From a virus: a stretch of DNA of 50,724 nt. Shown here piece after piece: positions 26,850 through 47,413 of this stretch. Under the pieces are notes generated by a model that was given only the letters and a program-made list of their open reading frames with translations, made no database searches and was not told where the DNA came from. The DNA is taken from positions 1 through 50,724 of the IMG/VR virus record IMGVR_UViG_3300046714_000194; one strand, written 5' to 3'. The translations under genes were made by a program, and so were the position numbers. Each line of letters begins with the position of its first letter. The first letter of the stretch is position 1.

Positions 26850-26861
26850 TAGGCTAGCGCC
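26850..26861 (-). promoter_or_regulatory. Late-motif copy before the holin
   Basis: Minus strand GGCGCTAGCCTA, one of nine copies of a shared motif found only in the structural and lysis half. It ends 8 bp before the holin ATG in a 38-bp intergenic gap. Confidence 0.6.
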
Positions 26862-26879
26862 CGGCGAATGTGGGCGGTG

Positions 26880-27218
26880 TTACCGGCAGCGCGCGAAACC
26901 GCCGCACGCCCGTACGCCGGCCTGCGTCTCGGCCGAGGCAATGCACGCCGCAGGTACGAGCGTGAGGTGCCGCGCGTCCGCACGAGCCATAACGTCGTCG
27001 CAATCGGCGTGCGCGCCTTCCGGGCAACCGAGCGCGCGAAGTCGTGCGCAGGCCTGGCCGTAGATCGTCGACGGGTCGAACCCAGCGTCAGCGAGCGGCC
27101 CCGGGGGATCCGGCGGCAGCGGCGGCAGCGGCGCCGGCGAAGTGCAGCGGCACGCGCCGAGCACCAACGCGGGCAGTAGCACGAAAGGGAACCAGCGGAA
27201 ACGTTGCTTGCGAGTCAT
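26880..27218 (-). CDS. Lipoprotein with Cys-rich C-terminus
   Basis: 112 aa. Basic start (MTRKQRFRW), hydrophobic FPFVLLPALVLGAC lipobox with the acylated Cys at about 23, a Pro-rich spacer (PLPPLPPDPPGP), then six Cys (ACARLRALGCPEG, DCDDV, PAACIAS, ACGGFARC). ATG 27218 overlaps the papain stop (ATGA). Could be an outer-membrane spanin partner or a surface factor; unknown. Confidence 0.65.
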   Translation of the reverse strand: MTRKQRFRWFPFVLLPALVLGACRCTSPAPLPPLPPDPPGPLADAGFDPSTIYGQACARLRALGCPEGAHADCDDVMARADARHLTLVPAACIASAETQAGVRACGGFARCR

Positions 27219-27985
27219 CGCCCGATCTTTCGGTAGCCGAACGCGATCAGCTGGGAAGCTTGGTTGACGAAGGCGTCGGTCACGAGGCAATCGCCGTTCG
27301 CGCCCCAACCCGCACCCCAGCTGTTGCGCAGCCAGAAGTGCCCACTGGCCTCCGACGCGAGCAAGACAGTCCAATGGCCGCCCCCGTCGGGATCGTCTTC
27401 GTTCATCAGTCCGAGCGGGGCCCGCCCTGGCGTCCACCTCATGAAAGCCGAGTCGACGTACGTGCCGACTCCGACCGGTGCGCCCGACGCGATCGCCTGC
27501 CGCGCCTCGTCGGCGTTGCCGATCTCGTACCACCCGACGTAGCGGTGCTCGCCTTCCGTCTCTAGGGATCCAAGATCCGGCTCGGGCAAGACGCCGTTCG
27601 TCGGGAAGCAGTCGGTTGCGGCGCCGGCGGGTTCGAGCGGCGCAATGCCGAACTCGGTGAGCCCGCGCATGGCGAGCGCCGGCATTGAACCCTGATCGAG
27701 CAGCGCGTGAGCCAAGGGATCGCCCCGCTCGAGCGCGACGGCGTTGCCGTAGATCTTGCCGGGCGACGGTACCCACGGCAGCGGCGCGCCTGCGACGGCG
27801 CACGATGTGGCAATGCCTGTGGCCGTTCCGTGCCCGACGCAGCCGCTGCACGAGCCCTGATCGAGCACGTACGGCGCGGCGTCGCGCAGGTCACGAGGCG
27901 CCGGTGTTGCGAGCAGCCCGAAGCGGTGTGCCCACTTGACGTAGACGGAGCGAAGCGCGTGGTGATCTGGGGTGTAGCCGAACAT
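27215..27985 (-). CDS. Papain-like (C1A-type) cysteine protease
   Basis: 256 aa. LDQGSCSGCVGHG contains the oxyanion Gln and the catalytic Cys; GGGHWTVLLAS carries the His; WLRNSWGAGWGANG carries the Asn and the conserved SWG. The catalytic triad and spacing fit C1A peptidases. There is no signal peptide or propeptide, so it works in the cytoplasm or is packed in the virion. Its place between lipoproteins, after the tail fibres, suggests a role in host entry or lysis (inference). Start ATG 27985 overlaps the previous TGA. Confidence 0.85.
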   Translation of the reverse strand: MFGYTPDHHALRSVYVKWAHRFGLLATPAPRDLRDAAPYVLDQGSCSGCVGHGTATGIATSCAVAGAPLPWVPSPGKIYGNAVALERGDPLAHALLDQGSMPALAMRGLTEFGIAPLEPAGAATDCFPTNGVLPEPDLGSLETEGEHRYVGWYEIGNADEARQAIASGAPVGVGTYVDSAFMRWTPGRAPLGLMNEDDPDGGGHWTVLLASEASGHFWLRNSWGAGWGANGDCLVTDAFVNQASQLIAFGYRKIGR

Positions 27986-28332
27986 CAGGGGCCCACTTTC
28001 GTGGCGCCGCATTGGCGCACCCACGATGAGGCGAAGCTGTCGGCCTCGGCCTGCGAGATCGCCGAGAAGATTCCGACGACGACGCCGGCCGAAACGATCG
28101 CCCAACGCGCTTCGACACCCTGCACGGGGATCGCGCTGATCCCGGAAGCGCCGGCGGCAACGGCGGTGCCCTTCGCGACGGCGCCCCAATCACGCCGAGC
28201 GCCGTCGATCGCAGCACACTCTGGCGGGTCGATCGAGATTGCCGCTTCGGGTGCGCCGGCCATGCGTGCTTCTGAAAACGTGCCCGAGCAGCCGCACAAG
28301 GCGAGCGCCAGCACCAGCGCCACGCGGATCAT
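27985..28332 (-). CDS. Small lipoprotein with membrane-like segments
   Basis: 115 aa. A signal peptide MIRVALVLALALCGC with lipobox (Cys about 13-15), then Ala-rich GAVAKGTAVAAGASGIS and WAIVSAGVVVGIFSAIS hydrophobic segments and two more Cys. It is coupled to the papain-like gene (TGATG). Could be an o-spanin-like or host-envelope protein. Confidence 0.6.
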   Translation of the reverse strand: MIRVALVLALALCGCSGTFSEARMAGAPEAAISIDPPECAAIDGARRDWGAVAKGTAVAAGASGISAIPVQGVEARWAIVSAGVVVGIFSAISQAEADSFASSWVRQCGATKVGP

Positions 28333-28559
28333 CGGATCCTCCGGTGCGGACCGCGCGCGGAGCTGAGATCGAGCGGCTCCACGTCAGGGCAGCACCCGGG
28401 CGCGCCCCCGATCGTGCAGCAAGCCTCACCTGTCCAGCAATTGCCGTGGCCGTCGTAGCAGCACACCTTTTGCGTGCCGCACTCTGGCGTCAACTCACCG
28501 TGACACGAAGCGCCGGCCAGCAGCAAGGCCAGCACAATGCAGGTTGCAACATGACGCAT
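28329..28559 (-). CDS. Short Cys-rich lipoprotein
   Basis: 76 aa. MRHVATCIVLALLLAGASC is a signal peptide with a weak lipobox. The mature part holds ten cysteines in the order C, CC, C, CC, CC within about 40 residues (CGTQKVCCYDGHGNCW), indicating a disulfide-knotted or metal-binding module. A late-motif copy (28565-28576) is just upstream, and its stop overlaps the next gene (ATGA). Confidence 0.6.
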   Translation of the reverse strand: MRHVATCIVLALLLAGASCHGELTPECGTQKVCCYDGHGNCWTGEACCTIGGAPGCCPDVEPLDLSSARGPHRRIR

Positions 28560-28564
28560 ACCCG

Positions 28565-28576
28565 TAGGCTAGCGCC
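28565..28576 (-). promoter_or_regulatory. Late-motif copy before the Cys-rich lipoprotein
   Basis: Minus strand GGCGCTAGCCTA, identical over 12 bases to the holin and 31093 copies, ending 5 bp before the lipoprotein ATG. Confidence 0.6.
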
Positions 28577-28578
28577 TT

Positions 28579-29451
28579 CTATTGTAGCGCACGCCCCGCG
28601 GCCTTGTACGCGGTCCCGACGGTGTTGATTGTCGCGGTCAGGTCGTAGAGGGCATTGACCGAGCTGCCGCCGCCAGAGCAGCAGTTCGTCGGGCCCATGA
28701 ACCAGTAGGCGTGCATCTTCACGTAGGGGAGCAGATCCATGGCAGGCACCGCGGCGTTGATCATCGCAACTTCAGTCGCGGCGCTTTGCCCGATCGTCCC
28801 CCACTCCGGGATAATCATGTCCCACTTCGGGAATCCGGCGTGGACCTGCTTTACCAGGCCGATGAATGTCGCCGCATCCGCGACGCCGTCCGCCGCTGAA
28901 ATGTAGCGATCGAATGTCAGGTAGTCCGGTTCTCGGCAACCGTTCGAACGAATACCAGCGAGCCACGTGACGAAATGACCGCCGGCCGTATCGGGCATTT
29001 GCACGGTGTACGGGCTCGCTAGTTTGATTTCCGGGTGAGCGAGAATCGAAGGGTCGGTGACGAACGTGCACCACGCCGTAATGGCGTTGGCGTCGCTGAT
29101 TCCGTGCCCGTCGAACTCGCCGAGCGAAAGAATCACCCTGCTCTCTGCCGCTTCGGCGACGGCTTCAGCAACGAACGTCTGGTTGGTTACGTCGGTGTCG
29201 TTGTTGAGGTACGGGACGTAAACGGCGCCACCGATCTTCGGAGTTTCGCCTTCGCGCTTGCGGTAGAAGTTGTGCCACCAATTGTGACTCTGGTCGGCAA
29301 GCACTGAGTTTCGTTGCGTCAGATTCCACGTATTGGAAGACGAGGCAACGCTCACCATTACGTTGCCGATCTTGTGCGGAGTTCCTTCTACGAAGCTAGG
29401 CCCACAGCCGATTGCCAGTGCGACCGCGGCCAGCGCCGCATGCGCATTCAT
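28579..29451 (-). CDS. GH128-like glycosyl hydrolase lipoprotein
   Basis: 290 aa. A signal peptide with lipobox LAIGC (Cys about 16). The body follows the Asl1/GH128 barrel: NWWHNFYRKREGE, YVPYLNNDTD, VILSLGEFDGHG (acid/base Glu candidate), FVTWLAGIRSNGC, YLTFDRYIS, IIPEWGTIG (nucleophile Glu candidate) and KMHAYWFMG. GH128 enzymes cut β-1,3-glucan, so host exopolysaccharide or coat glucan is a possible substrate. I chose ATG 29451 because the signal peptide starts there. Confidence 0.7.
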   Translation of the reverse strand: MNAHAALAAVALAIGCGPSFVEGTPHKIGNVMVSVASSSNTWNLTQRNSVLADQSHNWWHNFYRKREGETPKIGGAVYVPYLNNDTDVTNQTFVAEAVAEAAESRVILSLGEFDGHGISDANAITAWCTFVTDPSILAHPEIKLASPYTVQMPDTAGGHFVTWLAGIRSNGCREPDYLTFDRYISAADGVADAATFIGLVKQVHAGFPKWDMIIPEWGTIGQSAATEVAMINAAVPAMDLLPYVKMHAYWFMGPTNCCSGGGSSVNALYDLTATINTVGTAYKAAGRALQ

Positions 29452-29465
29452 TGGCGGCCGTGGGC

Positions 29466-30854
29466 CTAGGGGAATCTCCCTTGCGGGTTGTGGTAGTAGT
29501 TCGCGAAAGTGTCGACGTCGAACGTCTTCGCCGACGCACCGACGGACGAATACGTATTGTTCATTGCCCCGACCACGGTGCCCGCCGGGCACGCCGTCCA
29601 CGCGACGCTAGCGACCTGCACGTGGTCGATATCAAAGTAGGCGTTCGCCTGGCCGGCTTCGTGGCTAACCGTGAACGTCTTCGCCGTAGTGCCAACTGCG
29701 ATGCCCGTGTCCGAGCAGGTGATCACGCTCGCGGCAACACAGCACCCTTTCCAGTTCACGCTCGCGCTTTGGCCTGACGAGCCGGGCCGGTCGTAGACGA
29801 ACAGCATTCCGTTCGTCGGGTAAATCTGCGACGCAGCGCTCGTTGATGCGTAGCCGATGTTGTTTGCGAACTCAGCTGCGCCCGTCGAAAGGGCCTCGTT
29901 GAAGGAGCGTGTCTCGAATTCGACCGTGACGTTGGTGTCGAGCGGATAGGATCTGCCGTTGCCCGCGGTCGCGCTCCCCGATTCGACGATGCCTCCGAAC
30001 GATGTCGCCGCCGCGCTGACAATGAGCCGTAGCGATCCGACAACGCCCGATCCGTTCGTGTTCTGCTGGACCGTCGAGATCGTTGCCGACTGAATGTCGA
30101 GCCCGTTCGGGGCCATGTTCGAGTTGACCACCGGGAGAATCGGCAGTGCGAGATCGTCAACGTACGCAAAGCCTTCCGTCGCTCGCGCTCGGGACATGTC
30201 GACACGCCGTGCGAGCAGCGTCGTCGTTCCCATTGTGATCGTATCGCGGATTCGGTACGTGTAGTAACCGCCTCCGTGCACGAGACCCTTTGGCCCCGCG
30301 CTGATGCGAGGGCCGGCCGCGAACTCCGCGGCGGTATCTACGCGCGTATCGCGGATCGCGCTCCACGGCGTTCCGCCGGTGCCCTGCGTGAGTACGTAGA
30401 CGCCGCCGTCACTGAGGGTCGTCGGGTTCTGCAGCAAAAAGCGATCGCCAGTGACGAGCGTCACGTTGTCGACGGCTGCGAGCACGCCGTTCGCCGTAGC
30501 GGTCAGCGTGAAACCGACGCCGGGGCCGCCGCTCGACGTGTACGTCGGGAGCATTGCGGTCGTTACTGCAGCAACTTCGACTGCCGTGCTAGTGCTGCTG
30601 CCAACACCAGAGATCGCAGTATCGACGTACGTCTTCGTGGTGAGATCGGTTCCGACTGTTGGGGCGCCCGCGTTGAACGCCTTTTTGGTGTTCAGATCGA
30701 GCCCGGAAGCGTTGGCCTTGATCCCGCCGAGGTTGTCGATCACCGCGCCGAACCGGCCCGCATGCGGGTTGTGCCCGAAGAGCAGCGCCACGACGAGCGA
30801 GACTGCGGCCGACAGAGCGGCCAGACCTGCGAGACCCTTGAGATTCGTTTTCAT
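29466..30854 (-). CDS. Membrane-anchored tail-fibre-like protein
   Basis: 462 aa. Residues 5-27 are a hydrophobic segment (LKGLAGLAALSAAVSLVVALLFG). About 60-210 holds the phage tail motif KTYVDTAISGV, LPTYTSSGGPGVGFTLTA, VTGDRFLLQN and GVYVLTQGTGGTPW, common in T4-like and Mu-like fibre or structural proteins. The C-terminal half is a β-rich, lectin-like domain. A hydrophobic anchor on a tail protein is unusual; it may be an uncleaved signal. It sits between baseplate genes and secreted enzymes. Confidence 0.65.
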   Translation of the reverse strand: MKTNLKGLAGLAALSAAVSLVVALLFGHNPHAGRFGAVIDNLGGIKANASGLDLNTKKAFNAGAPTVGTDLTTKTYVDTAISGVGSSTSTAVEVAAVTTAMLPTYTSSGGPGVGFTLTATANGVLAAVDNVTLVTGDRFLLQNPTTLSDGGVYVLTQGTGGTPWSAIRDTRVDTAAEFAAGPRISAGPKGLVHGGGYYTYRIRDTITMGTTTLLARRVDMSRARATEGFAYVDDLALPILPVVNSNMAPNGLDIQSATISTVQQNTNGSGVVGSLRLIVSAAATSFGGIVESGSATAGNGRSYPLDTNVTVEFETRSFNEALSTGAAEFANNIGYASTSAASQIYPTNGMLFVYDRPGSSGQSASVNWKGCCVAASVITCSDTGIAVGTTAKTFTVSHEAGQANAYFDIDHVQVASVAWTACPAGTVVGAMNNTYSSVGASAKTFDVDTFANYYHNPQGRFP

Positions 30855-30856
30855 GA

Positions 30857-31087
30857 TCAGCTTCCAGCCTCGATCTTGTCGTTTGCGTCGTTCACTTGCA
30901 GAACGTCCGTCGTGTTTCCGCCCGCGCCGTCGCCTGCGCCGAGTACGTCTTGCGTCAGGCTGCCCGGAGGTGACGGGGGCGGCACGACGACCGCCGTATC
31001 CACAGCCCCTGCCGAGATCGCGATCTGCACAACTTGCTGCTGCGTGCGGTTTCGCTTCGGTTGGGGGCGTATGAATGCGTCAGCCAC
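30857..31087 (-). CDS. Small hypothetical protein before the fibre gene
   Basis: 76 aa: basic start (RPQPKRNRTQQQ), a hydrophobic VVQIAISAGAVDTAVVV, a Pro/Gly linker and LTQDVLGAGDGAGGNTTDVLQV repeat-like β-strands. GTG 31087 lies 5 bp after a late-motif copy. Function unknown; likely a minor virion protein. Confidence 0.55.
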   Translation of the reverse strand: MADAFIRPQPKRNRTQQQVVQIAISAGAVDTAVVVPPPSPPGSLTQDVLGAGDGAGGNTTDVLQVNDANDKIEAGS

Positions 31088-31092
31088 GAGGC

Positions 31093-31104
31093 TAGGCTAG
31101 CGCC
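31093..31104 (-). promoter_or_regulatory. Late-motif copy at 31.1 kb
   Basis: Minus strand GGCGCTAGCCTA, 5 bp before the GTG of the 76-aa ORF. Confidence 0.6.
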
Positions 31105-31129
31105 CGCGCCCCAATCCCCGTCGCAGGCA

Positions 31130-31732: not shown

Positions 31733-31748
31733 GGCGATCGAATCCGTA

Positions 31749-32393
31749 TTAGGGCGCGTGCGTGTAGTTGATCTGGATCCCGGCCAGACCGAGCTTCAGG
31801 ATCGCGGCGTTGGCGCCGGCCTCGCCGGTGAGGCGAACGAGATACCGGCGGAACTGCGACGACACGAAGCGGGAAGTTGTGAGCACGATCGTGTGCTGCG
31901 CGTCGTAGGCGGCTTGGGTGCCCGACGGGTCGGTGACGCTCGCGGAGAATGTCGTCGCAGCGGTGCCGGGGTCGACCTCGAGAAATTTCAGTGTCGGCTT
32001 CGTTGCCGGCAGTCCGGCGTGCGCACCAACACCGAGCGCCGCCGTTCCGCAGATGAATGCAACCACGCTGGTAACGGTGATCTGATCGGGCAGGACCATC
32101 TCAAAGTCGAGCGGTGTTGCGGCCGAGATATCCGTTTGCACCCACAGGCCCGGTGCCGTGCCGCCGCTGATCCAGCTCCACGTGCCGCCGACGATCGTGT
32201 CTTGCCGACCTGCCGGCATTGGCATCATGGCGGCGCCGTCGGAAGCGCCCGGCACCAACCGCTTGAAGTACGCCGTTCGGTTTGCCAACGCCGTGAATGG
32301 CACCACAACGGACGCGGCGTTACGCGGATCGCCAGGATCCGGCACCGTTACAGGCGTGTCGTAGCTGTCGGTGTCGGTGAGGCCGTGCGACAT
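31749..32393 (-). CDS. Putative tail fibre / receptor-binding protein
   Basis: 214 aa, β-sandwich-like with Gly/Thr-rich strands (TWSWISGGTAPGLWV, TLKFLEVDPG, FRRYLVRLTGE). It directly follows tail protein I, the usual place of fibre genes. A late-motif copy (32402-32413) is 8 bp upstream of the ATG. Confidence 0.6.
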   Translation of the reverse strand: MSHGLTDTDSYDTPVTVPDPGDPRNAASVVVPFTALANRTAYFKRLVPGASDGAAMMPMPAGRQDTIVGGTWSWISGGTAPGLWVQTDISAATPLDFEMVLPDQITVTSVVAFICGTAALGVGAHAGLPATKPTLKFLEVDPGTAATTFSASVTDPSGTQAAYDAQHTIVLTTSRFVSSQFRRYLVRLTGEAGANAAILKLGLAGIQINYTHAP

Positions 32394-32401
32394 GTCGGGC
32401 C

Positions 32402-32413
32402 TAGGGTAGCGCC
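32402..32413 (-). promoter_or_regulatory. Late-motif copy before the fibre gene
   Basis: Minus strand GGCGCTACCCTA, ending 8 bp before ATG 32393 in a 21-bp gap. Confidence 0.6.
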
Positions 32414-32414
32414 C

Positions 32415-33176: not shown

Positions 33177-33179
33177 GGA

Positions 33180-34340
33180 TCACACCGTGCCCGGAGGGGG
33201 AACCTGGTGCACGACGATTCCGATCGTGCCGAGCGTTGCAACTTCGTTGGCGTCGAGCGACAGATCGCCGGCGGGCGTCACCATGGCAACGTTGAATACG
33301 CGCAGGCCCGGATCGGCACCAGCAATCGCGTTTTGAATGGCCGAGACGTAGATCTTGCCAACGACGCCCACGAGATCGCCGCCGATCGGCTCGGTCGAGA
33401 AGAAGCGAGTGAGCGACGCGGCGCAAAGATCCTGGATCTGGGCGTCGCTGAACCCGCTATCGGCATAGCAGTACACGTGCGCGCCGACGTTGACTGGCAC
33501 CTCGTCGGCCGAGTGTGTAAAGGCCGTCACGGCGAGCGGCGCGGACTGCGTTTGCACAGCCGCGTCCACGAACGGCAGGTCGGACGGGTCGATCCCGCCG
33601 GCGGCGTTTGCAACGTAGATATCGACACGCCCGAAGCCGTCTTTCGTGAGGCGCACACGCGTCACGCCGATGTTGGTACCGTCGCCGCGCACCGCCGAGC
33701 GGCAAACGAACCCATACGCATCGGGCGGGCCGTTGGGCGACAGCGCGCCGAGCTTCTCTTTGCAGCGAAGACGCAGGGCCGGGTCGAGCTCTGCGTCTAG
33801 CCCGATGATCGCGCTCTGCAGGCCGCACGTGACGCCCGGCAGCGGACTCGTAACGATCATCACGTCGGTGATCAGCGCAGTGCTTGCCGAGCCGGCCTGT
33901 GACGCCTGCAGGATGCACGGGATCCCGCTCGAGACGCTTGGGATCGTGATCGGGCCGACGTTGACGTACGTTGCACCTGTTCGGCCGTTGGTGATCTGCA
34001 GCTCGCCGTCGGCCAGGACGTAGATCCCGCCCGAGGAGTTTGCAAGTACGGCCGAGCCCTGCCCGAAAGTCGCCTCGATGCGATCGACGCCGTACACGTT
34101 CGACGCAAGCAGCGTGAGCCAGTCGCCCGAGGCAGTGTCGAGGAAACCCGACTTTGCGATCTCGGCCGTCAGCCGCGAAAGCGCAGAGATCAGGATCGAC
34201 GTCGCTGCGATCATCGTACGCACGACGCCGCCGGGCTTCCAAGTCGTAGTGTCGACACCGATCTGCGCTAGGACGCTGTAGATCGAGAGCCGCACCTGAT
34301 CGACGGTGAGCGGCTTGGTGAGATCTTCGATCGGCGTCAC
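33180..34340 (-). CDS. Baseplate J protein (gp47-like)
   Basis: 386 aa. RTMIAATSILISALSRLTAEIAKS near the start, a LDTASGDWLTLLASNVYGVDR motif, and an RCKEKLGALSPNG-type core are characteristic of baseplate J. The central β region VYVANAAGG and PVNVGAHVYCYAD fit. Late-motif copy 34358-34369 lies upstream, within the gp25-like gene. GTG 34340 overlaps the previous stop (GTGA). Confidence 0.85.
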   Translation of the reverse strand: MTPIEDLTKPLTVDQVRLSIYSVLAQIGVDTTTWKPGGVVRTMIAATSILISALSRLTAEIAKSGFLDTASGDWLTLLASNVYGVDRIEATFGQGSAVLANSSGGIYVLADGELQITNGRTGATYVNVGPITIPSVSSGIPCILQASQAGSASTALITDVMIVTSPLPGVTCGLQSAIIGLDAELDPALRLRCKEKLGALSPNGPPDAYGFVCRSAVRGDGTNIGVTRVRLTKDGFGRVDIYVANAAGGIDPSDLPFVDAAVQTQSAPLAVTAFTHSADEVPVNVGAHVYCYADSGFSDAQIQDLCAASLTRFFSTEPIGGDLVGVVGKIYVSAIQNAIAGADPGLRVFNVAMVTPAGDLSLDANEVATLGTIGIVVHQVPPPGTV

Positions 34341-34834
34341 GAGGTAACCTGCTGCAGTAGGGTAGCGCCGTCAGTCACGACGACGATCAGGCTGAACGGC
34401 CCAAGATTCGGGTCTTTCGGCGTGACGCGCACGTCGATCTCAAGGCGCCGGCGGGTTGCGTCGTACGTCACGACGGCCAGCGCGTTTGACACCCGATCGT
34501 CCTTCTGCAGCTCCGTTGCAATCTGCCCCTGGCAGCCCTGCAGGTCGCCGAGCGTCTTCGCGGCGTGCAAAAACTCGGTTACGTCGATCCCATAGTCGAG
34601 ATCGTCGGGCAGCGTCTCGCGGCGCGTGGTAATTCGGTGGTAACAGTCCTGCGCCAACGTTTCGGTGCTGTTGGGGTTCGTCGTGCCGAGTGCGGGGTCG
34701 AGATCGTTGACGCACTTCAGATCGGTGCCGTACCCGACGGCGGTTGTCTCGGGCACGATGCGAATCAGCGTGAGCTGCCCGTCAGGCGCTTCGATGATCC
34801 CGTCTTCGGCAAGCGTGGGCGGTGACGCGGTCAT
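34337..34834 (-). CDS. Baseplate wedge protein (gp25/W/Mu gp46-like)
   Basis: 165 aa. The core from LTIRIVPET is followed by TETLAQDCYHRITTRRETL and DYGIDVTEFLHAAKTLGDL, then β-strands ALAVVTYDATRRRLEIDVRV, the lysozyme-like wedge family found before J. ATG 34834 overlaps the previous stop (ATGA). The real gene is the last third of a longer open frame. Confidence 0.7.
   Translation of the reverse strand: MTASPPTLAEDGIIEAPDGQLTLIRIVPETTAVGYGTDLKCVNDLDPALGTTNPNSTETLAQDCYHRITTRRETLPDDLDYGIDVTEFLHAAKTLGDLQGCQGQIATELQKDDRVSNALAVVTYDATRRRLEIDVRVTPKDPNLGPFSLIVVVTDGATLLQQVTS
34358..34369 (-). promoter_or_regulatory. Late-motif copy before baseplate J
   Basis: Minus strand GGCGCTACCCTA inside the end of the gp25-like gene, 17 bp before the J start. 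Confidence 0.55.
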
Positions 34835-37048: not shown

Positions 37049-39018
37049 TATGCGGCCTCCGGCGAGGGAACGCGTGCGCCGAGGTGCGCTGCGACGCCCA
37101 TAAACGTTTCTTCGAGCTCTTGGCGGAACCCGCGCGCCGCAGCACGCCCCTCGGCCTCGCTGTTCGCGCCATGCACGTGCACATCCCCGAAGTGCACCGA
37201 GCCGCCGGCGCCTGCACCCGTTCGAGCGCCTTGCCGCCCTGGTGCGCTGTCGTCGCCCGCGCGCGCGTACCCGCCGATCCCGGTCCGCACGGGCGCGGTT
37301 GCTTCTTCGACGTCGCGCGCCATGTTGCGCGAGCTCTGCTGCACAAGCAGTCGCGACGAGTCGAACCCGAGCGCCACGCCGGCGCCGGCGAAGAAACCGC
37401 GCTTCGCCATGACGGTGCTAGGAGAGTGGATCCCGAGCGCCTTTTCGAAGCTATCCTTCGCCGTATTGGCGAGCCGCTTCATTGCATCCCACACCTTGGA
37501 TGCACTGTTCGCGATACCAACAACGACCCCTTCGACTAGCGAAGAGCCCAACGACGCCCAATCTTGTGACGAAAACCAGTCGTACGCCTTTGCGGCGAGA
37601 TCGATCACCTTTATGAAAGCGTAGCCGAGCAGCAGCAGCGGCAGCGTCACGCCGAAGACGGCGAGCGCCAACACGCCGAACGCAAACGCAAGCCCGAGTA
37701 CGACGGTTGCGCCTGCAGCAAGCGCAATCCGCGTAGTGTCGATCTTCGCGATCGTCTCCTTCCCGAACGCGTCGCGGATCCAGTTGCGCACCTTCAAGAT
37801 CCCGATCGTCAGGTACAGCGCGGCGATGATCATCCCTTGAAAGAAGCGCTTCACGATGGGGGCGGCACCGGCAGCGCCATCGATTAGCGAAGGAAAGAGC
37901 GCTTCAACGATTGCCTTCAACGCCCGGCCGCTCGCAGTCGACTGCGAAAAGAGATCGGTGATCATCTTCACGCCCGCCGCGAGCTTGTCGATCTTCAGCC
38001 CCGAGAAGAGCATGGCGAAACTCTCGTGCAGCTTCTGCGAGAGCACAGTCAGCGAGAGCATCTGCCGCGCGGCGATCCCGCCGAGACGTGCTTTGACGTC
38101 GTTGGCGAGTGCCTTCACGCTCTGTCCCGTCAGCGCCGCACCGGCAGCCCACCCGGCAAACGCCCGCGCCTGCGTCTCGCCCTGCGTCGCAGCGGTGATC
38201 GACACCCCTTCAAGGGCCGCCTGCAGGTTCCCGCCGCGCAGCCCCATGCGGTAGAGCTCTTCGGCGTATCCCGCCACGGCGTCACGGCCAATCGCAACCG
38301 AGCCGGACACCCGATCGATCTGCTCTTGCAGAAACGAGGCCGTCTTGCCTGCGTCCTTCTGCGTGCCGGCGAACCCGCTCCAGAAGTTGCGAATCTTCGC
38401 CAGCCCTTCGAGCCGCAAGAGCTCCGAGCGCCGCGCGTCGGCTGTGGCGATCCCGTACTTCACGAGCGACGCCGCAGCGGCTGCCGTCGCCACAGCAACC
38501 GCCACGATGGCTGCCACCAACGCGATCGCGCCGGCAGCCATAGCCAGTTGCGCGCCCGTAGCGCTCTTCAGCATCGGGATAAACCGCCCCATCGGCCCGA
38601 GTGCGCCCGTCACATGTTCGCGCAGCGCCTCGATCGCCTGCCCCTTCGGCGCCGCCTTTTGCGCCTCCGAGATCGCCTTGAACGCCGCGCCCAACCCGTG
38701 CAGGCCCCCGTCGGCGGCAATGCTCGACTTCTTTACCCGCTCGAGCGAGGCGCCGAGCTGCAGAAGGCCCGCCTGCGAGCCGGCGATCGTCGCCTTCTGC
38801 GCTGCGATCTTGTCTTTCAGCGACCCGATCGCGCTGTCGGCCGCAACACCGCCGCCTTTGAGGTTTCGCAGCGCGCTCTGCAACCCGCGAAGTGCGCCAA
38901 CGTCCTGTTCGATCTTGCCCTTGAGAGCTTCGAGCGCGGCAGCGCTGGACGCAGCAGGGCCGGACGTCGCGTCTTCGAGCGCGATCCGGAACGTTGCAGA
39001 AGCGTCTTCAGCGGCCAT
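37048..39018 (-). CDS. Tape measure protein
   Basis: 656 aa, mostly helical. An N-terminal coiled coil (AALEALKGKIEQDVGALRGL) is followed by several hydrophobic segments (AMAAGAIALVAAIVAVAVAT, VVLGLAFAFGVLALAVFG, LLLLGYAFIKVIDLA) and a basic, Gly-rich end. It fixes tail length and forms a DNA channel on entry. Placed after the frameshifted chaperone, as is typical. A late-motif copy at 39068 lies about 50 bp upstream. Confidence 0.9.
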   Translation of the reverse strand: MAAEDASATFRIALEDATSGPAASSAAALEALKGKIEQDVGALRGLQSALRNLKGGGVAADSAIGSLKDKIAAQKATIAGSQAGLLQLGASLERVKKSSIAADGGLHGLGAAFKAISEAQKAAPKGQAIEALREHVTGALGPMGRFIPMLKSATGAQLAMAAGAIALVAAIVAVAVATAAAAASLVKYGIATADARRSELLRLEGLAKIRNFWSGFAGTQKDAGKTASFLQEQIDRVSGSVAIGRDAVAGYAEELYRMGLRGGNLQAALEGVSITAATQGETQARAFAGWAAGAALTGQSVKALANDVKARLGGIAARQMLSLTVLSQKLHESFAMLFSGLKIDKLAAGVKMITDLFSQSTASGRALKAIVEALFPSLIDGAAGAAPIVKRFFQGMIIAALYLTIGILKVRNWIRDAFGKETIAKIDTTRIALAAGATVVLGLAFAFGVLALAVFGVTLPLLLLGYAFIKVIDLAAKAYDWFSSQDWASLGSSLVEGVVVGIANSASKVWDAMKRLANTAKDSFEKALGIHSPSTVMAKRGFFAGAGVALGFDSSRLLVQQSSRNMARDVEEATAPVRTGIGGYARAGDDSAPGRQGARTGAGAGGSVHFGDVHVHGANSEAEGRAAARGFRQELEETFMGVAAHLGARVPSPEAA

Positions 39019-39196
39019 CGGACAGAGCCTTCACGATCTGGCGAAGGCAATGCAGGCCTTCCGCAAGTAGGATGGCGCCCGCTAGCTGCTTGGCTTCGGC
39101 GTTGTCGCCCTTTGCCGGCGGCGTGCCGAATGCTGCTAGGAGAAGTTCTGCTGCGGCTCCCGAATGCTCCCGGCCTTCGCTCGCGAGCCGTTTTAT
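39008..39196 (-). CDS. Tail chaperone frameshift extension (-1)
   Basis: This 62-aa frame has no plausible start of its own. It continues the 144-aa chaperone (39193-39627) if ribosomes slip -1 on the A-run just before its TAA (GCAAAATAA, 39193-39201). It reads KRLASEGREHSGAAAELLLA...LRQIVKALSDGR, helical and rich in Ala/Leu, and ends 10 nt inside the tape measure start. Predicted fusion: about 206 aa. Conserved layout in contractile and siphoviral tails. Confidence 0.7.
   Translation of the reverse strand: MKRLASEGREHSGAAAELLLAAFGTPPAKGDNAEAKQLAGAILLAEGLHCLRQIVKALSDGR
39068..39079 (-). promoter_or_regulatory. Late-motif copy before the tape measure
   Basis: Minus strand GGCGCCATCCTA inside the frameshift region, about 50 bp before ATG 39018. 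Confidence 0.5.
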
Positions 39197-39627
39197 TTTG
39201 CAGCTTGATCGGACGCCCGCGCACCCGCGAGCAGCACGACGGCGTCGCCCAACCGCGGCAGCGTCGCCGGCAGCCGGTCGAGGATCCGATCGATCGTGGC
39301 GTGATCGGGGTACACGAAGCACGGCCGAACGAGCTTGTCGATCGAGGCCGTGTCGAACTTGGCTTGATCTTGGAAGCGCCGGAAGTTGCCGGAGCTTGCC
39401 CGCTTCACGATGATCGCGCCCATGTCGGTTTCGACGACGGCGATCTCCGAGCCAACAGCGCCGAGCTTGCAGATCGCGTCGGTGATCGCCTCGGCGTCCG
39501 CCGCTTCCCGTTCGAGCTGTTCGATCTCCGCCGTCGATGCGGCTTGCGCCTCGGCGTTGGCGCGTGCGGCCTCGGCTGCGGCCTTGCGAGCGCGCGCCTT
39601 GGCTAGTCTGTCGTCGGTGTCGCTCAT
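39193..39627 (-). CDS. Tail assembly chaperone (short form)
   Basis: 144 aa. A charged, Ala-rich helical start (AKARARKAAAEAARANAEAQ) is followed by an ordered domain (VVETDMGAIIVKRASSGNF, FVYPDHATIDRILDRLPATL). It lies between tail tube and tape measure, as gpG/gp41-type chaperones do, and ends at a slippery A-run. ATG 39627 overlaps the tube stop (ATGA). Confidence 0.75.
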   Translation of the reverse strand: MSDTDDRLAKARARKAAAEAARANAEAQAASTAEIEQLEREAADAEAITDAICKLGAVGSEIAVVETDMGAIIVKRASSGNFRRFQDQAKFDTASIDKLVRPCFVYPDHATIDRILDRLPATLPRLGDAVVLLAGARASDQAAK

Positions 39628-40103: not shown

Positions 40104-40113
40104 GATCGGCGCC

Positions 40114-41553: not shown

Positions 41554-41568
41554 GCGTGCGTCTCGTGT

Positions 41569-42168
41569 TCAGGGGTTCGTGATCACAATCGGGGAATCGG
41601 TGACGTCGAGTTCTTCAGGCGTGATCTCCGCCCGTAGAGGTGGATCCACGATCGTGGGTGTCTCGTCGGGGATCATGGCTTGTATAGCGCCCACCAAACG
41701 GATCCCTGCGCCGGCGCGCCGTTCGTTCTTGTCGGTGATCCATCCCTGACTCACGACGCGGATCGTTCCGTGCGCTGCGAGGTATGCCGCCCTCCACCAC
41801 GCGTCGTAGAGCAGGCGCACGATATGGTACTGAGCGCGCTCGTCGTTGCGCTTGCCCGTCGACGCGTCGCTGCTCGTGATGTAGATCGTGAAGAGCTCTT
41901 CGAGCGTCGCGAGCGGCCGGCCCGGGTCAAGCCGGTTGGGGTACTTCGGGGCGTTCAGCACGCCGAGGTTGCCGGTCGGGTCGTCGCCCGGGATCCACAC
42001 GATGCGCGCGCCGACGCCCTGCCGATTACCCTCACGCCACCCGAACGGGTTTGCCTTTTGCGCGAGCGCGTCCGACGGCGTGACGTCGCCGAACGTGCCG
42101 TCGAGCGCGAAGCGCGCAACGCAATCGTCGTGCAGCTTTTCGAGCGCAAGAATGATCGCGTCGGCCAC
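41569..42168 (-). CDS. Tail terminator-like protein
   Basis: 199 aa. The first 140 residues are α/β (AIILALEKLHDDCVARF, EELFTIYITSSDAS, YHIVRLLYDAWWRAA), resembling tail terminators or gpU-like completion proteins; it is between the gpG-like gene and the sheath. ATG 42168. Function inferred from synteny. Confidence 0.65.
   Translation of the reverse strand: MADAIILALEKLHDDCVARFALDGTFGDVTPSDALAQKANPFGWREGNRQGVGARIVWIPGDDPTGNLGVLNAPKYPNRLDPGRPLATLEELFTIYITSSDASTGKRNDERAQYHIVRLLYDAWWRAAYLAAHGTIRVVSQGWITDKNERRAGAGIRLVGAIQAMIPDETPTIVDPPLRAEITPEELDVTDSPIVITNP
41680..41691 (-). promoter_or_regulatory. Late-motif copy (GGCGCTATACAA variant) before the sheath
   Basis: Minus strand GGCGCTATACAA inside the terminator gene; it is part of a 20-base block (41678-41697) that is identical to 45286-45305. 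About 130 bp before the sheath ATG. Confidence 0.6.
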
Positions 42169-42169
42169 G

Positions 42170-42571
42170 TCAGGCCCCCGTCACATCGGCGCGTAGGTTC
42201 GCTTCGACGACTTTGCGGATCGCCTCGGTGATCTGCCCGGGGATCTGCGCTGACGGTAGGATCTGCCGGCGGATCTTCCCCTTCACGGCTCCCATGTTGT
42301 GCAGCGCCTCGGGCCCGGTAAGCTTGGCGATCACGACGTTGCCGATCGCGAAAGTCGTGAGGGCGCCGGCGGCGTTCTGCAGCGGGCGCTTCCCTTCCTT
42401 CGTCGGCTTCCACGGCGTGCCGTCGGGCGTTTGCCCTGCGGCGATCGTCTTCGTGCTCTCGACATGCACCGCTCGAGCGACGTCGGGCGCATAACGCTCG
42501 CCGGCGCCCGGCAGCTTCTGCAACCGGCGGATCTGCGCATTGAGCGCGGCGAAGGCGGCGTCGTTGCTCAC
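42170..42571 (-). CDS. Mu gpG-like virion morphogenesis protein
   Basis: 133 aa. QTPDGTPWKPTKEGKRPL and LTTFAIGNVVIAKLTGPEALHNMGAVKGKI resemble the Mu gpG / phage virion morphogenesis (tail completion) family, typically just after the gp36-like connector. ATG 42571 overlaps the previous stop (ATGA). Confidence 0.7.
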   Translation of the reverse strand: MSNDAAFAALNAQIRRLQKLPGAGERYAPDVARAVHVESTKTIAAGQTPDGTPWKPTKEGKRPLQNAAGALTTFAIGNVVIAKLTGPEALHNMGAVKGKIRRQILPSAQIPGQITEAIRKVVEANLRADVTGA

Positions 42572-43035
42572 GACGCGTCGTCTTCCTGCCCTGCGTCTCG
42601 TTGCAGGTCGAAGCCGTGATAGGGTGACGCCTCCGAGTAACCGAGCGGCGCGCCCTTCGAGATCCCCGACTCCGAGGTGTTCGAACGGAGCGGCAGATCA
42701 AAGAGGCCGTCTTTTGCGTCGGCCGCTTCTTTGATCTCGATCATGGCGTCTTTTTTGCGCCCGATGATCTCGGAAGTCTGCTTGTCGGTTGGATCGATCC
42801 CGCGTTTGAGGTACGCCTCGTACGTTACGAGATCGTTAAGCCAGCCGGTAACGGCCCCGGGATACGGCGAGCCGAACGGTGCGGCGTAACGCTTGGCGAG
42901 ACGCGAGTCGATCCAGTCCGACCAGCGTTGCAGCTGCGCATCGGTCCAACCCGCCTGATCCGTCTCGATCTCGTCGAGATATTCAGGCGGGATCACCGAT
43001 AGCAGCTTGAAAGCTGCAAGTGTGAGGTAGGCCAA
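42568..43035 (-). CDS. Head-tail connector (Mu gp36 / DUF1320-like)
   Basis: 155 aa. AYLTLAAFKLL, then YLDEIETDQAGWTDAQLQRW and DSRLAKRYAAPFGSPYP match DUF1320 (gp36-like). It follows the capsid gene and would sit between portal and tail. The C-terminal part (EIKEAADAKDGLFDLPL) is conserved in this family. Confidence 0.8.
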   Translation of the reverse strand: MAYLTLAAFKLLSVIPPEYLDEIETDQAGWTDAQLQRWSDWIDSRLAKRYAAPFGSPYPGAVTGWLNDLVTYEAYLKRGIDPTDKQTSEIIGRKKDAMIEIKEAADAKDGLFDLPLRSNTSESGISKGAPLGYSEASPYHGFDLQRDAGQEDDAS

Positions 43036-43047
43036 AACGGCCCCCGA

Positions 43048-44118
43048 TCAGGACGCGCGACCCTTGAAGATCAGGTACGGGTGGCCGTAGGCGCCGAGGT
43101 TGCGGCCCTTGATCGTCCACTGGAACTTCGACGCACGCGCAAGTTGCGCATCCGTCTGCGGGCCGTTGTAGATCACGCTGAACGGCTCGCGGTTGAACCA
43201 GAGGATCGCTCCGAGCTGCGAAGACGCCATCTGCTCGGTAACGATGTAGTAGTCGGTGTCGGATCCGTTCGTGAATCCTGCGCCCAGCTCCGGGCACTCG
43301 ATCGGGAGACCGAGGCCCCACGCACCGATCACCATGCTGATATCGGCCGAGCCAGCACCGCCGGTGCCGCCCTGCGCGATGAACTTCGCTTGCGTCAGCT
43401 GCTGCATGCGCGCAGTCATCGCCGGCGGGTGCAGAATGTAGACGGGCTTCAGGCCGCGGGGATCTTCCCCGTTCGGCATGCGGATCCCGCGAATGTATGC
43501 GATCGCCTTCTGCAGGTTGATCAGCGCCTGATCCAGCGTGACAGCACTCGAGAGATCGAGCGCGCCCGGGTAGGACGCATCTTGCGGATCCGTTGCCGGC
43601 GTCGACGCGGCCGCACCGGTGAAGACGTTGGCGAAGGTGCCGACAGCAGAATCCATCACGTTGATCGGGTGCGTCTTCGAGAAGAAGACCTGCGCGTCGT
43701 ACGACGTGAAGCCCGCCTGATCGCCGTTGCGGATCAGCGCCGCGATCTGCTTCTGCGGCCAGTACGCCGCGTATGCGCCGACCTGCCGAGACCACTCGGA
43801 AGCCTGATCGATGCCGCCACCGTCGAGATCTTCAAGCTCCACCTTGGCGACTTCGAGTCCGCCCGTGGCCGCCTTCCACTCGTACTCGGTCGACGTGCTG
43901 AGTAGCTCGTCGAAGAGCACGTCGCCGCCGAGGCGATCCTGATATTGGATTCCGGCGGTGTCGAGCGTCCAGATCAGCCGCTGCTTGCGCGTCTCGCCGG
44001 TCGGCCGCTGCTTCGCGACCTTGGCGTACCAGAGATCCGCGAGCAGACGCTGGTACTCGGCCTCGGCAATGACCTGCATGCCGGTTTCGAGATTGAAGAG
44101 GAACTGCGGAGTCAGCAT
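43048..44118 (-). CDS. Major capsid protein (Mu gpT-like)
   Basis: 356 aa. QFLFNLETGMQVIAEAEYQ, ELLSTSTEYEWKAATGG, YAAYWPQKQIAALIRNG and SYDAQVFFSKTHPIN match the Mu gpT major head family. The end VIYNGPQTDAQLARASKFQ and GHPYLIFKGRAS is conserved in this family. Forms the icosahedral shell. SD AGGAAAG precedes ATG 44118. Confidence 0.9.
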   Translation of the reverse strand: MLTPQFLFNLETGMQVIAEAEYQRLLADLWYAKVAKQRPTGETRKQRLIWTLDTAGIQYQDRLGGDVLFDELLSTSTEYEWKAATGGLEVAKVELEDLDGGGIDQASEWSRQVGAYAAYWPQKQIAALIRNGDQAGFTSYDAQVFFSKTHPINVMDSAVGTFANVFTGAAASTPATDPQDASYPGALDLSSAVTLDQALINLQKAIAYIRGIRMPNGEDPRGLKPVYILHPPAMTARMQQLTQAKFIAQGGTGGAGSADISMVIGAWGLGLPIECPELGAGFTNGSDTDYYIVTEQMASSQLGAILWFNREPFSVIYNGPQTDAQLARASKFQWTIKGRNLGAYGHPYLIFKGRAS

Positions 44119-44161
44119 TGTGTCGGGCTTTCCTGCGAGTCAGGGAACGGGCGAGCGGGGA

Positions 44162-44611
44162 TCAGAAGTCGAGGCCGGTCAGGTGACCGATCCCGAACTC
44201 GAGAGGCGCCACGAGCACACCGCGGATCGTGTCGATCTTCAGCGCGCGTCCGGCGACGGAAAGAGTGTTGGTGGCGTCGGTGTTCGTGACGGTCTGATCG
44301 TCGAGCAGGTAGCAAAGGCTACCGATGTTCGCGGCGACGACCGGGTTGCCGGCGGCGTCGTTGACGCGCCAGACGCAGTGCAGCTCTTTGAAGAGCTTCA
44401 CGGTGACGGTGCCGCCCGCCGCGGTGTTCTGATCGTCGGCGAAGGTGCCGATCGGGATCAGCGTGGTGGACGCGAACGCCTTCGCGACGAGGCCGGTGGA
44501 CGTGTCGAGGCACGCCGTGCCACCCTTCCAAACCTGCTCAGTCTTGCCCTTGAGCTCGACAGAGCTGATCTTTTCGGTCGTCGTGCGGCGGGATGCAGCA
44601 AGCGCGGTCAT
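44162..44611 (-). CDS. Head decoration / cement-like protein
   Basis: 149 aa, β-rich with SSVELKGKTEQVWKG, LIPIGTFADDQNTAA and GSLCYLLDDQTVTNTD. Size and place between protease/scaffold and capsid fit DUF2190-like capsid decoration proteins. No signal or membrane segments. ATG 44611 is 1 nt before the protease/scaffold stop. Confidence 0.7.
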   Translation of the reverse strand: MTALAASRRTTTEKISSVELKGKTEQVWKGGTACLDTSTGLVAKAFASTTLIPIGTFADDQNTAAGGTVTVKLFKELHCVWRVNDAAGNPVVAANIGSLCYLLDDQTVTNTDATNTLSVAGRALKIDTIRGVLVAPLEFGIGHLTGLDF

Positions 44612-44612
44612 G

Positions 44613-45245
44613 TCACGCCTTCACTTTCTGCAGGCCGAATTGCTGCACGTTGGTGTTTGGATCCGTCACGCAAACGAGCTCCGTTTTCTTGGCGCCCATG
44701 CGCGCAGCGAGTGGCGAGGCCATGAACTCGGCTCGAGCGCCTTCGCCCTGGTGTGCGCCGAGGGTCGCGTTGACTTCCGGCGTGATCGCCTGCGATCGGA
44801 ACTGCGCCGGCACCGCAGCGACGATGCGCTTGCATGCGTCGAGCGGCAGGCCTTCGAGGCTCTTGAGAAGCGCCTCGGGCAGGTTGGCGTTGGACGCCAT
44901 GAACGTTGCGCGCTCTTCGGCAGCAGCCCGCGCAGCGCCGGCAGCGATCGCGGCTTCGAGCGCCTTGATCCGCGCGTCCGATGCGGCGAGCGACGCGGCA
45001 AGGCTCGACGCAGCCGCAATGGCCTTGTCGTCCTTCTTCTCGTCGTCTTCGGCCTTCGCTGCGGCAGGGGCAGACGCGGCGGGCGCTTCGGCCTTCGAGG
45101 CCTTGTCGTCCTTCTCGTCTTCGTCGCCCTTGTCGTATGCCGCCAGGGCTTTCTTCGCCCGACTCGAAACCTTTGCGTCGTCGGAGTTCGAATCCTTCAC
45201 GAGCGCCGCGCGGGTTGCGTCTTGATCTTTCTTCTCGGGATCCAT
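44613..45245 (-). CDS. Nested scaffold protein (internal in-frame start)
   Basis: From ATG 45245 the same frame gives a 210-aa protein starting MDPEKKDQDATRAALV. It covers only the charged, helical scaffold half. A GAGG Shine-Dalgarno (GCTGAGGCATCACGC) lies just upstream and a late-motif copy (45288-45299) about 43 bp upstream. Phages such as lambda and Mu make a free scaffold the same way, so separate expression is likely. Confidence 0.7.
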   Translation of the reverse strand: MDPEKKDQDATRAALVKDSNSDDAKVSSRAKKALAAYDKGDEDEKDDKASKAEAPAASAPAAAKAEDDEKKDDKAIAAASSLAASLAASDARIKALEAAIAAGAARAAAEERATFMASNANLPEALLKSLEGLPLDACKRIVAAVPAQFRSQAITPEVNATLGAHQGEGARAEFMASPLAARMGAKKTELVCVTDPNTNVQQFGLQKVKA

Positions 45246-46028
45246 GCGTGATGCCTCAGCGGAAGTTGCGGCTTGTGCCGTCGGAGCTTGTATAGCGCCC
45301 ACCAACGCGTCGAACGTGCCCACCCGATCGGCGAGCCCGCGCGCAACCGCGTCGGCGCCGACGAGCACGCCAGCCTGCAGCGGCTCGGGATCGAACGCGC
45401 GCCAACCGCGCACCAGTTCGAAGAAGCGCGCAGCCGTCGCGTCGACCGTGCGCTGCGTCTCGGCCAATGCCTCCTCCGACAGCGGCGTGTGTGGGTTGCC
45501 GTACGCCTTCTTCGTGCCGCTCGTGACGAAAGCGAAGTCGGCGCCGGCGGCCTTGTCGGCGCGCGCGACGCTTTGCATCTCGTGGATCACGCCAATGCTG
45601 CCGACGACGGCCGTATCTGAAACCCAGATCTCCGAGCAGGCCGAGGCGAGCGCGTACGCTGCCGAGCACGCCTGGCTTGCTACGAAGACGATCAGGCGCT
45701 TCTTTGCGGCCTCGGCGTCGGCGCGGATCCCGCGGGCGCAGTCGAAACAGCCGGCGACTTCCCCACCGGGCGAATCGATCTGCAGGATCACGCACTCGGC
45801 CTCGGAGGCGAGCGCAGCGCGCACACGCCCGCGGATCGCGTCGTACGTGTCGAACAGGAAGCCCGAGAAGCACAGCGGACCGCACACGCGCACGACGGCT
45901 GCCTTGCCGTCAGCAACCAGGGCGGGGCCCACGTCGGGGCGACCGATCAGAAAGTCGAGGCCGAACGCTTTCGGGTCGAGCGCGAGCGGCCCGTTCGGAG
46001 CAAAGCGGGCGGTTTCATGCTGCGCCAT
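44613..46028 (-). CDS. S49-type head maturation protease fused to scaffold
   Basis: 471 aa. Residues about 45-235 are SppA/S49-like: ECVILQIDSPGGEVAGC, VFVASQACSAAYALAS (catalytic Ser candidate in ACSAAY) and VGSIGVIHEMQSV. After a linker, residues 262-471 form an Ala/Lys/Asp-rich helical scaffold with repeated DDEK runs. This is the Mu gpI/Z or lambda C/Nu3 architecture. Its ATG 46028 overlaps the portal by 14 bp. Confidence 0.85.
   Translation of the reverse strand: MAQHETARFAPNGPLALDPKAFGLDFLIGRPDVGPALVADGKAAVVRVCGPLCFSGFLFDTYDAIRGRVRAALASEAECVILQIDSPGGEVAGCFDCARGIRADAEAAKKRLIVFVASQACSAAYALASACSEIWVSDTAVVGSIGVIHEMQSVARADKAAGADFAFVTSGTKKAYGNPHTPLSEEALAETQRTVDATAARFFELVRGWRAFDPEPLQAGVLVGADAVARGLADRVGTFDALVGAIQAPTAQAATSAEASRMDPEKKDQDATRAALVKDSNSDDAKVSSRAKKALAAYDKGDEDEKDDKASKAEAPAASAPAAAKAEDDEKKDDKAIAAASSLAASLAASDARIKALEAAIAAGAARAAAEERATFMASNANLPEALLKSLEGLPLDACKRIVAAVPAQFRSQAITPEVNATLGAHQGEGARAEFMASPLAARMGAKKTELVCVTDPNTNVQQFGLQKVKA
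45288..45299 (-). promoter_or_regulatory. Late-motif copy before the nested scaffold
   Basis: Minus strand GGCGCTATACAA within the protease gene, in a 20-base block (45286-45305) identical to the one at 41678-41697. The downstream internal ATG is 43 bp away. Confidence 0.65.
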
Positions 46029-47394
46029 CGGGGGATCCTTTATCGGTGTCGGGCGGGGTATCGCCCGCGGGGCTCTTGGTTTCGATCGCCGGCTCGGTGA
46101 TCGTTGGGGGCGCGCCCGGGGTCGTGGGGATCCCGAAGCGGCTGATCAGCGCGTCGACGTCGAGCGTCACGCCGCCGGCAGCAAGCACGGGCCGCATCGT
46201 CGTGATCGCTGCGGCGACGGCGGCGATCGCGTCGGCGTCGGCCTTGCGATCGGCAGGTGGTGCGATATCCCACTCGACGCGCGGGCAATTCGGCAGAACG
46301 TCGAGCCCTTTGCGCTTGAACGCCCACGGCGGCAGGCCTTGGGTGTTGATCGTGTGTGCTAGGGATTCGGCGGTTTCTTTGATCAGGTCGGCGCGGATCG
46401 TTTGGTGGATCGACGCGTTGGCGAAACCGGTGCCGCCGGTGACCGTTACGACCTGCCCGGCAAGAGCGATCATGATCTCGAAGTTGGACGTGTCGATCTC
46501 GGTGCCGAACACCTCCCAGCCTTTGCCGTTCGACTCGAGTAGCTTCACGTCCCAACCCGACGGGAGCGAGAAGACGCTGTTCAGGCCCCACGCCATGAGG
46601 CGTTGGAAGAAGGAGAGCTTTGCGTCTTCGGATGCGCCCTGCGGCGTGAAGGCGACGCGCGCGGGGTTGGCAAGCTTCGCGCTGAAGTTCGCGCGGTGCA
46701 GCTTGGCGTGATCCTTCACGATGAAGGCGTGGCCGAGGCAGGGCCACAGCGCCGACTGCCAAGGCTGCAGGCGCCCGCCGGGTACGTGGAGGATCCACCG
46801 ACCATCGCCGGGCGTGATCGGGATCAGCCCGGCGGTGCTCTGGAAGTACCACCGCCCTTCGTTCCACCGGTACCAAAGGAATTCCGGATCGAGCCGCACC
46901 ATGACCGGGTGATCGCGCCCGGGTACGGCAACCATCTCGGCCACGCCGATCCCGCAGCCGATCCCGTCGGCAGCCAGGGCGGCAAGCTCCGCCGGCGGGA
47001 ACATCTCGTCAAACACGCTGCGCGAGTCGTTCTGCCCGGTGAGCTCGTCGGTGAGCGCCTTATCGCCGCGAAAGCGCTTCTGCAGCGCCACGAGCCCGGA
47101 CGTGCGCGTCTTCACCAACCCGCCGATGTAGCCGTCACGCTTCATCGCGCGCCACAGCTGCCCGACCTTGTGCATCTGGCCGCTGTCGGCCTGCAGCTGC
47201 GCCGTTTCGAGATCGGCGAGGTACCACCGCGTTTGCGTCGTCGGCAGAAGCTGGATCTGGCCGCCTAGCGCCTCGCGAATCTGCTCTTCAGACTCCTTCG
47301 AAACGCCCTGCACGGGCGTCGCGTTTTCGTAGGCGCTGAACCCCATAAGAGTTCGCGCCGCAGCTGCAAAGCGAGAGCTCAGGGCTTGGGCCAT
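46015..47394 (-). CDS. Portal protein (DUF935 / Mu gp29-like)
   Basis: 459 aa. QTRWYLADLETAQLQADSG, QLWRAMKRDGYIGGLVKTR, QSALWPCLGHAFIVKDHAK and GWEVFGTEIDTSNFEIMIA are typical of DUF935 portals. The C-terminal tail is Pro/Asp-rich and Gly-poor. Forms the dodecameric vertex through which DNA is packaged. A late-motif copy (47402-47413) is 7 bp upstream of its ATG. Confidence 0.9.
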   Translation of the reverse strand: MAQALSSRFAAAARTLMGFSAYENATPVQGVSKESEEQIREALGGQIQLLPTTQTRWYLADLETAQLQADSGQMHKVGQLWRAMKRDGYIGGLVKTRTSGLVALQKRFRGDKALTDELTGQNDSRSVFDEMFPPAELAALAADGIGCGIGVAEMVAVPGRDHPVMVRLDPEFLWYRWNEGRWYFQSTAGLIPITPGDGRWILHVPGGRLQPWQSALWPCLGHAFIVKDHAKLHRANFSAKLANPARVAFTPQGASEDAKLSFFQRLMAWGLNSVFSLPSGWDVKLLESNGKGWEVFGTEIDTSNFEIMIALAGQVVTVTGGTGFANASIHQTIRADLIKETAESLAHTINTQGLPPWAFKRKGLDVLPNCPRVEWDIAPPADRKADADAIAAVAAAITTMRPVLAAGGVTLDVDALISRFGIPTTPGAPPTITEPAIETKSPAGDTPPDTDKGSPDGAA

Positions 47395-47401
47395 ACGGCC
47401 C

Positions 47402-47413
47402 TAGGATGGCGCC
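47402..47413 (-). promoter_or_regulatory. Late-motif copy before the portal
   Basis: Minus strand GGCGCCATCCTA in the 44-bp gap between terminase and portal, ending 7 bp before ATG 47394. Confidence 0.6.

Follow-up and report, generated by a model that had tools for sequence, protein, structure and literature searches.

A candidate single-element late promoter read by a phage-encoded sigma factor in an integrase-bearing, contractile-tailed phage

Nine copies of a twelve-base motif precede late genes in the phage genome analysed here, and we put at about 0.8 the probability that these sites are single-element (-10-type) late promoters read by the host core RNA polymerase together with a sigma factor encoded by the phage. 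The earlier note on this DNA had proposed a late -10-type element recognised by a dedicated sigma, and this reading fits best among those weighed below, the sigma-bearing relatives of the phage carrying motifs of their own at the same gene positions. The independent comparative evidence is that, to judge from the sequences, the element appears to have changed within this clade while its positions stayed.

A strand-specific motif ahead of late genes

In the window, by which we mean the whole 50,724-nt stretch of DNA that was analysed, the motif occurs nine times and always on the minus strand, exactly where the earlier note had placed the copies. Five of the nine are exact GGCGCTASCCTA, a word found neither on the plus strand of the window nor in its reversed control. 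With a leave-one-out weight matrix, the scan that had been suggested for these sites, each scores 15.5-18.0 bits, whereas no other 12-mer in the window exceeds 11.4, and the family is confined to one strand and to the late region. Rather than being equally common in the early half of the window, the motif has no site there in the weight matrix scan, and an unbiased repeated-word search of the early region returned no word comparable to it. A loose scan permitting two mismatches gave 18 matches in the window against 11 expected, which is weakly above chance; what makes the motif significant is therefore not the two-mismatch count but the near-exact family together with the strand and placement of its copies.

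The consensus, GGCGC-TANNCT-A, is -10-like and not palindromic, and the five bases that precede the hexamer (GGCGC) are conserved to the same degree as the hexamer itself. The -10 elements of sigma-70-family promoters follow a T-12, A-11, T-7 pattern, which TANNCT matches. The two copies with TATACAA share 20 identical bases (TTGGTGGGCGCTATACAAGC), as had been noticed before. All genes called in the window except one lie on the minus strand (the calls are our own, made with a codon model), so that the motif sites fall on the coding strand.

Following the late genes in their direction of transcription, with distances counted from the end of the motif to the start codon, the first site (GGCGCCATCCTA, 47402-47413) lies 7 nt ahead of the portal ATG (47394) and has a counterpart at the same place in both sigma-bearing relatives, L010 and L015. 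The second (GGCGCTATACAA, 45288-45299) lies within the protease gene (44613-46028, minus strand), 42 nt ahead of the in-frame nested scaffold ATG at 45245; the nested start is present also in L010 and L015, and in all three phages it is preceded, at the same place, by the motif of that particular phage. The next site (GGCGCTATACAA, 41680-41691) is within gene 62, 126 nt ahead of the sheath ATG (41553), and the corresponding L010 site maps 6 nt away, while that at 39068-39079 (GGCGCCATCCTA) is within a small ORF (39008-39322), 49 nt ahead of the tape-measure ATG (39018), with an L015 site at the same place. Gene J (start at 34340) is preceded at 17 nt by GGCGCTACCCTA at 34358-34369, and another GGCGCTACCCTA copy (32402-32413) follows gene I in an intergenic gap, its end 8 nt ahead of the ATG at 32393, a place where L010 and L015 also have a site. 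The three GGCGCTAGCCTA copies are found 5 nt ahead of the GTG at 31087 (31093-31104), 5 nt ahead of the ATG at 28559 of a lipoprotein-like ORF (28329-28559; motif at 28565-28576) and 8 nt ahead of the ATG at 26841 (26850-26861), where the ORF encodes a small membrane protein that is holin-like by position only and has no Pfam match. An uncertain tenth candidate, GGCGTCACCCTA at 42620-42631 on the minus strand, is the best other coding-strand match (11.4 bits) and lies 48 nt ahead of a gene start at 42571.

Six of the nine sites are thus situated 5-17 nt ahead of a start codon; the proximity of six sites to within 20 nt of a start corresponds to P ~6e-8 relative to the share of the late region so placed by our own gene calls, in a position test that, like the others, was chosen after the sites had been seen. 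The sites had been described as lying upstream of late genes or inside the gene before, and this holds throughout: five are intergenic, although gaps make up only ~2% of the late region, and four (34358, 39068, 41680 and 45288) are within the upstream gene. Both intragenic GGCGCTATACAA copies encode GAIQA with the isoleucine specified by ATA, a codon used for 10 of 742 isoleucines; the late genes contain six ATA codons, and two of them fall in these motifs. The use of such a rare codon in the intragenic copies argues for selection on the DNA and not on the protein.

No -35 box was detected, in agreement with the earlier impression: in the window, L010 and L015 the best upstream 6-mer was no better than in random regions. 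For the window this would be explained by decay of region 4 of its sigma, so that no -35 would be read, yet the L010 and L015 sigmas keep region 4 and no -35 was found there either. Canonical TTGACA/TATAAT promoters were looked for and none was found. A search of the window for a T7-like single-subunit phage RNA polymerase gave no PF00940 match, and neither did the control.

Two further features of the late region may be mentioned. An in-frame ATG (MIPD...) at 41676, inside gene 62, lies 3 nt past the pre-sheath motif, and L010 has a similar one at 8836; translation of the late transcript from this ATG could yield a short C-terminal peptide of gene 62, of ~35-43 aa, in these two phages. Next to the lysis genes, the protein encoded at 27215-27985 (minus strand) weakly resembles papain-family cysteine proteases (E 0.005, short of the cut-off).

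The sigma gene and its distribution among relatives

The sigma-70-family factor (280 aa; 49162-50004, minus strand) retains regions 2-3, and its region 4.2 is degenerate. It matches phrog_351 (E 3e-22) and Pfam Sigma70_r2 (E 3.6e-12), and a PDB search aligns residues 16-149 with RpoS (E 2e-14), the nearest matches being RpoS-like, of the RpoS/SigA group; the predicted model (AlphaFold/Foldseek) resembles sigma-S structures, a likeness that is supportive only, given the mean pLDDT of 71 and a thin alignment. Region 4 gives a fragment match only (E 0.055), and one helix of its helix-turn-helix is missing from the alignment as well as from the model. The gene is flanked upstream by an HTH protein, the probable small terminase (50001-50519, minus strand; phrog_664, E 2e-4), whose homologue in L015 occupies the same position, and downstream by the large terminase (47439-49043, minus strand; phrog_2, E 1.9e-36), after which comes the first motif at 47402. 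The earlier note had assigned the sigma to the first late operon; the gene is indeed present, but it sits with the terminase genes ahead of the first motif and is not itself preceded by one. The block of terS, sigma and terL must therefore be read from an earlier promoter, and a search for such a promoter driving the sigma gene did not find one.

With the window sigma as the sole query no relatives were found. A search with the tail sheath gave 30 contigs, of which three represent the same phage and 27 are 43-58% identical in the sheath. Among the latter, a sigma is encoded only in L010 and L015, with the reservation that the contigs may be fragments and that absence from short ones is not proof; these two sigmas are 26 and 33% identical, respectively, to that of the window, occupy the same slot and keep region 4. 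Where relatives have no sigma, small genes of other kinds stand between terS and terL, and some of these encode HTH-like proteins (L009 962-1171, L017 791-1006, L031 1233-1493).

None of the relatives with 43-58% sheath identity contains the exact motif of the window. Blind repeated-word searches instead revealed, in L015, the element CGCACTAAACTA (7 copies against 0.03 expected, word P ~1e-12) and, in L010, the element tCAGTTCCTTAG with the word AGTTCCTTAG present four times against 0.006 expected (P ~4e-8). The L015 element can be set in register with that of the window as GC[GA]CTANNCTA; the L010 element is more divergent. Each of the four L010 sites maps to within 28 nt of a window site: one ahead of the portal, one at the start of the nested scaffold within the protease gene, one in the gene that precedes the sheath and one after gene I. 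For L015 the agreement is within 115 nt for five of the seven sites, namely those at the portal, the scaffold, the sheath and the tape measure and that after gene I. If sites up to 150 nt apart are counted as matching, the probability of such coincidence by chance, calculated post hoc, is ~2e-4 for L010 and 4e-4 for L015. When starts in L015 are read by homology (GTG 3218 for the portal, GTG 4655 for the protease), all seven sites lie 4-11 nt ahead of a start.

In the sigma-less L017, L019, L022 and L031 the top repeated words are mostly intragenic and distant from starts. The words of L017 and L019 reach P values similar to those of the sigma-bearing phages but are not near gene starts; since word frequency does not separate the two kinds of relatives, position was relied on as well. 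In a five-region test P was 0.0025 for L015, 0.010 for L010 and 0.09 for the window, which gets no further because its element varies, and at least 0.14 in every sigma-less relative. The element therefore occurs, among the sheath relatives inspected, only where the sigma does and varies with it, within a single clade: in the sheath tree the three sigma-bearing phages group together (97/89), which makes the co-occurrence of sigma and motif one evolutionary event and not three.

The isolates nearest by sheath (~30%) are Myxococcus phage Mx4, Thermus phage Riverbug and Meiothermus phages MMP7 and MMP17. Four relatives are located in bacterial genome assemblies, three from Myxococcota or an uncultured delta proteobacterium and one from an Actinomycetota MAG; on this sequence kinship the host may be a myxobacterium or a relative. 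The early region encodes a tyrosine integrase (13217-14527, minus strand; Pfam Phage_integrase, E 3.6e-14), and several relatives carry one too, so that the lineage may be temperate.

Other contigs with sigma-like genes or repeats present different pictures. Scanning viral contigs with GGCGCTASCCTAN{4,10}ATG produced scattered single matches among the matches listed, and this approach was rejected. A second phage group (L161, L162, L164 and L167) has a sigma beside terL, with region 4 kept in the three that were aligned (L161, L162 and L164). The repeated-word search of L161 found nothing resembling the motif, and that of L162 found intergenic inverted repeats instead; together with the rest of its contig (L181 and L182), this different sigma-bearing phage has at least 11 copies of the inverted repeats GTTGTCAGTTGT / ACAACTGACAAC. 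The unrelated contig L166, with a sigma-like match, contains AGTGCTATAGTA four times, near 1987, 5765, 12657 and 18948, and these repeats may be another promoter family.

A possible mechanism and its alternatives

Sigma recognition of the sites, start points, timing and leaderlessness are what we infer from the arrangement described above. The sigma would be made first, from an earlier promoter, through the terS-sigma-terL block, and would then activate late transcription ahead of the portal, nested scaffold, sheath, tape-measure, J, tail-fibre-region and lysis genes. TANNNT would serve as the -10 hexamer with GGCGC at the extended -10 position, and transcription would start 6-8 nt past the hexamer. 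With start codons 5-8 nt past the motif, a start distance like that of phiEco32 would leave many late mRNAs with no leader or almost none; this would not apply to all of them, as the motif lies 126 nt ahead of the sheath start and 42 nt ahead of the scaffold start. The site at 45288 would provide a scaffold transcript separate from that of the protease.

The strongest competitor supposes that the sites are extended -10 promoters of a host sigma and that the phage sigma serves other genes. TANNNT is the general -10 pattern of the sigma-70 family; moreover, several start codons stand at a leaderless distance, as in actinobacterial TANNNT promoters (PMC3898074). A host sigma would, however, hardly account for an element whose spelling differs within one clade of sigma-bearing phages although the gene positions are kept, for the failure to find a start-linked motif in the inspected relatives that share the gene order but have no sigma, or for the conservation of the five preceding bases at the level of the hexamer, and we regard this explanation as unlikely. 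Still less probable is the binding of a phage activator, repressor or other DNA-binding protein instead of a sigma: short conserved repeats ahead of operons are typical of operators and the phage does encode HTH proteins, but the consensus is non-palindromic and has the -10 pattern, and with many sites 4-8 nt ahead of starts an operator would need a separate promoter, of which none is visible. A role in RNA, as a translation-initiation signal or a processing site, would suit the coding-strand location near start codons but is very improbable with a sequence that is not Shine-Dalgarno, lies anywhere from 4 to 146 nt from the start in the three phages and varies from phage to phage, whereas the ribosome stays the same.

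Phage sigma systems and the significance of the sites

The reading as phage-sigma promoters has its closest precedent in phiEco32, whose sigma gp36 lacks region 4 and whose middle/late promoters (tAATGTAtA) are single elements with no -35 and with transcription starting 6-8 nt past the element (PMC8948821). The two systems have in common a phage sigma and one short element without a -35, in few copies heading late operons. They differ in that in the window sigma a fragment of region 4 still matches, and the L010 and L015 sigmas keep region 4, in that the nearest matches of the window sigma are RpoS-like, and in that the window represents another phage group, contractile-tailed and with an integrase; its element, in addition, is GC-rich (GGCGCTANCCTA), often at the start codon and at some sites intragenic. 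Phage 7-11, a distant relative of phiEco32, has dissimilar promoters at similar genome positions, and the late promoters of its gp47, which has region 4 intact, are bipartite with a -35-like box, GTAAtg-(16)-aCTA (PMC8948821). It resembles the present case in its phage sigma acting on late genes only, in positions kept despite the changed sequence and in a -10 part that includes CTA, while the bipartite structure and the intact region 4 set it apart from the window, where no -35 was detected. The T4 late promoters read by gp55 (TATAAATA) are also -10-only and need gp33 and the clamp gp45, and in Aeh1 a diverged gp55 goes with a diverged element, CTAAATA (PMC1524935). A dedicated late sigma, a -10-only element and the joint divergence of the two (T4/Aeh1) are thus shared, and the window sigma differs in belonging to phrog_351 and the RpoS/SigA group. 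We conclude that the window system probably consists of single-element late promoters working like those of phiEco32.

A fuller picture, to which we would give even odds, is that of an integrase-bearing contractile-tailed clade, related to Myxococcota prophages, in which a captured sigma would drive leaderless late mRNAs from single-element promoters, including one for the nested scaffold that lies within the protease gene; the spelling would drift with the sigma while the positions remain fixed, and one member would be losing the domain that reads the -35. The three sigma-promoter pairs, belonging to one clade and placed at the same operon heads with different spelling, would represent a natural series in which the co-evolution of sigma and promoter is testable by in-vitro swaps. 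To our knowledge, the strategy of directing late transcription by a phage sigma is known mainly from lytic phages, and the present reading, if true, would extend it to an integrase-bearing lineage; the sigma-promoter pairs may also serve as compact orthogonal promoters of a high-GC type.
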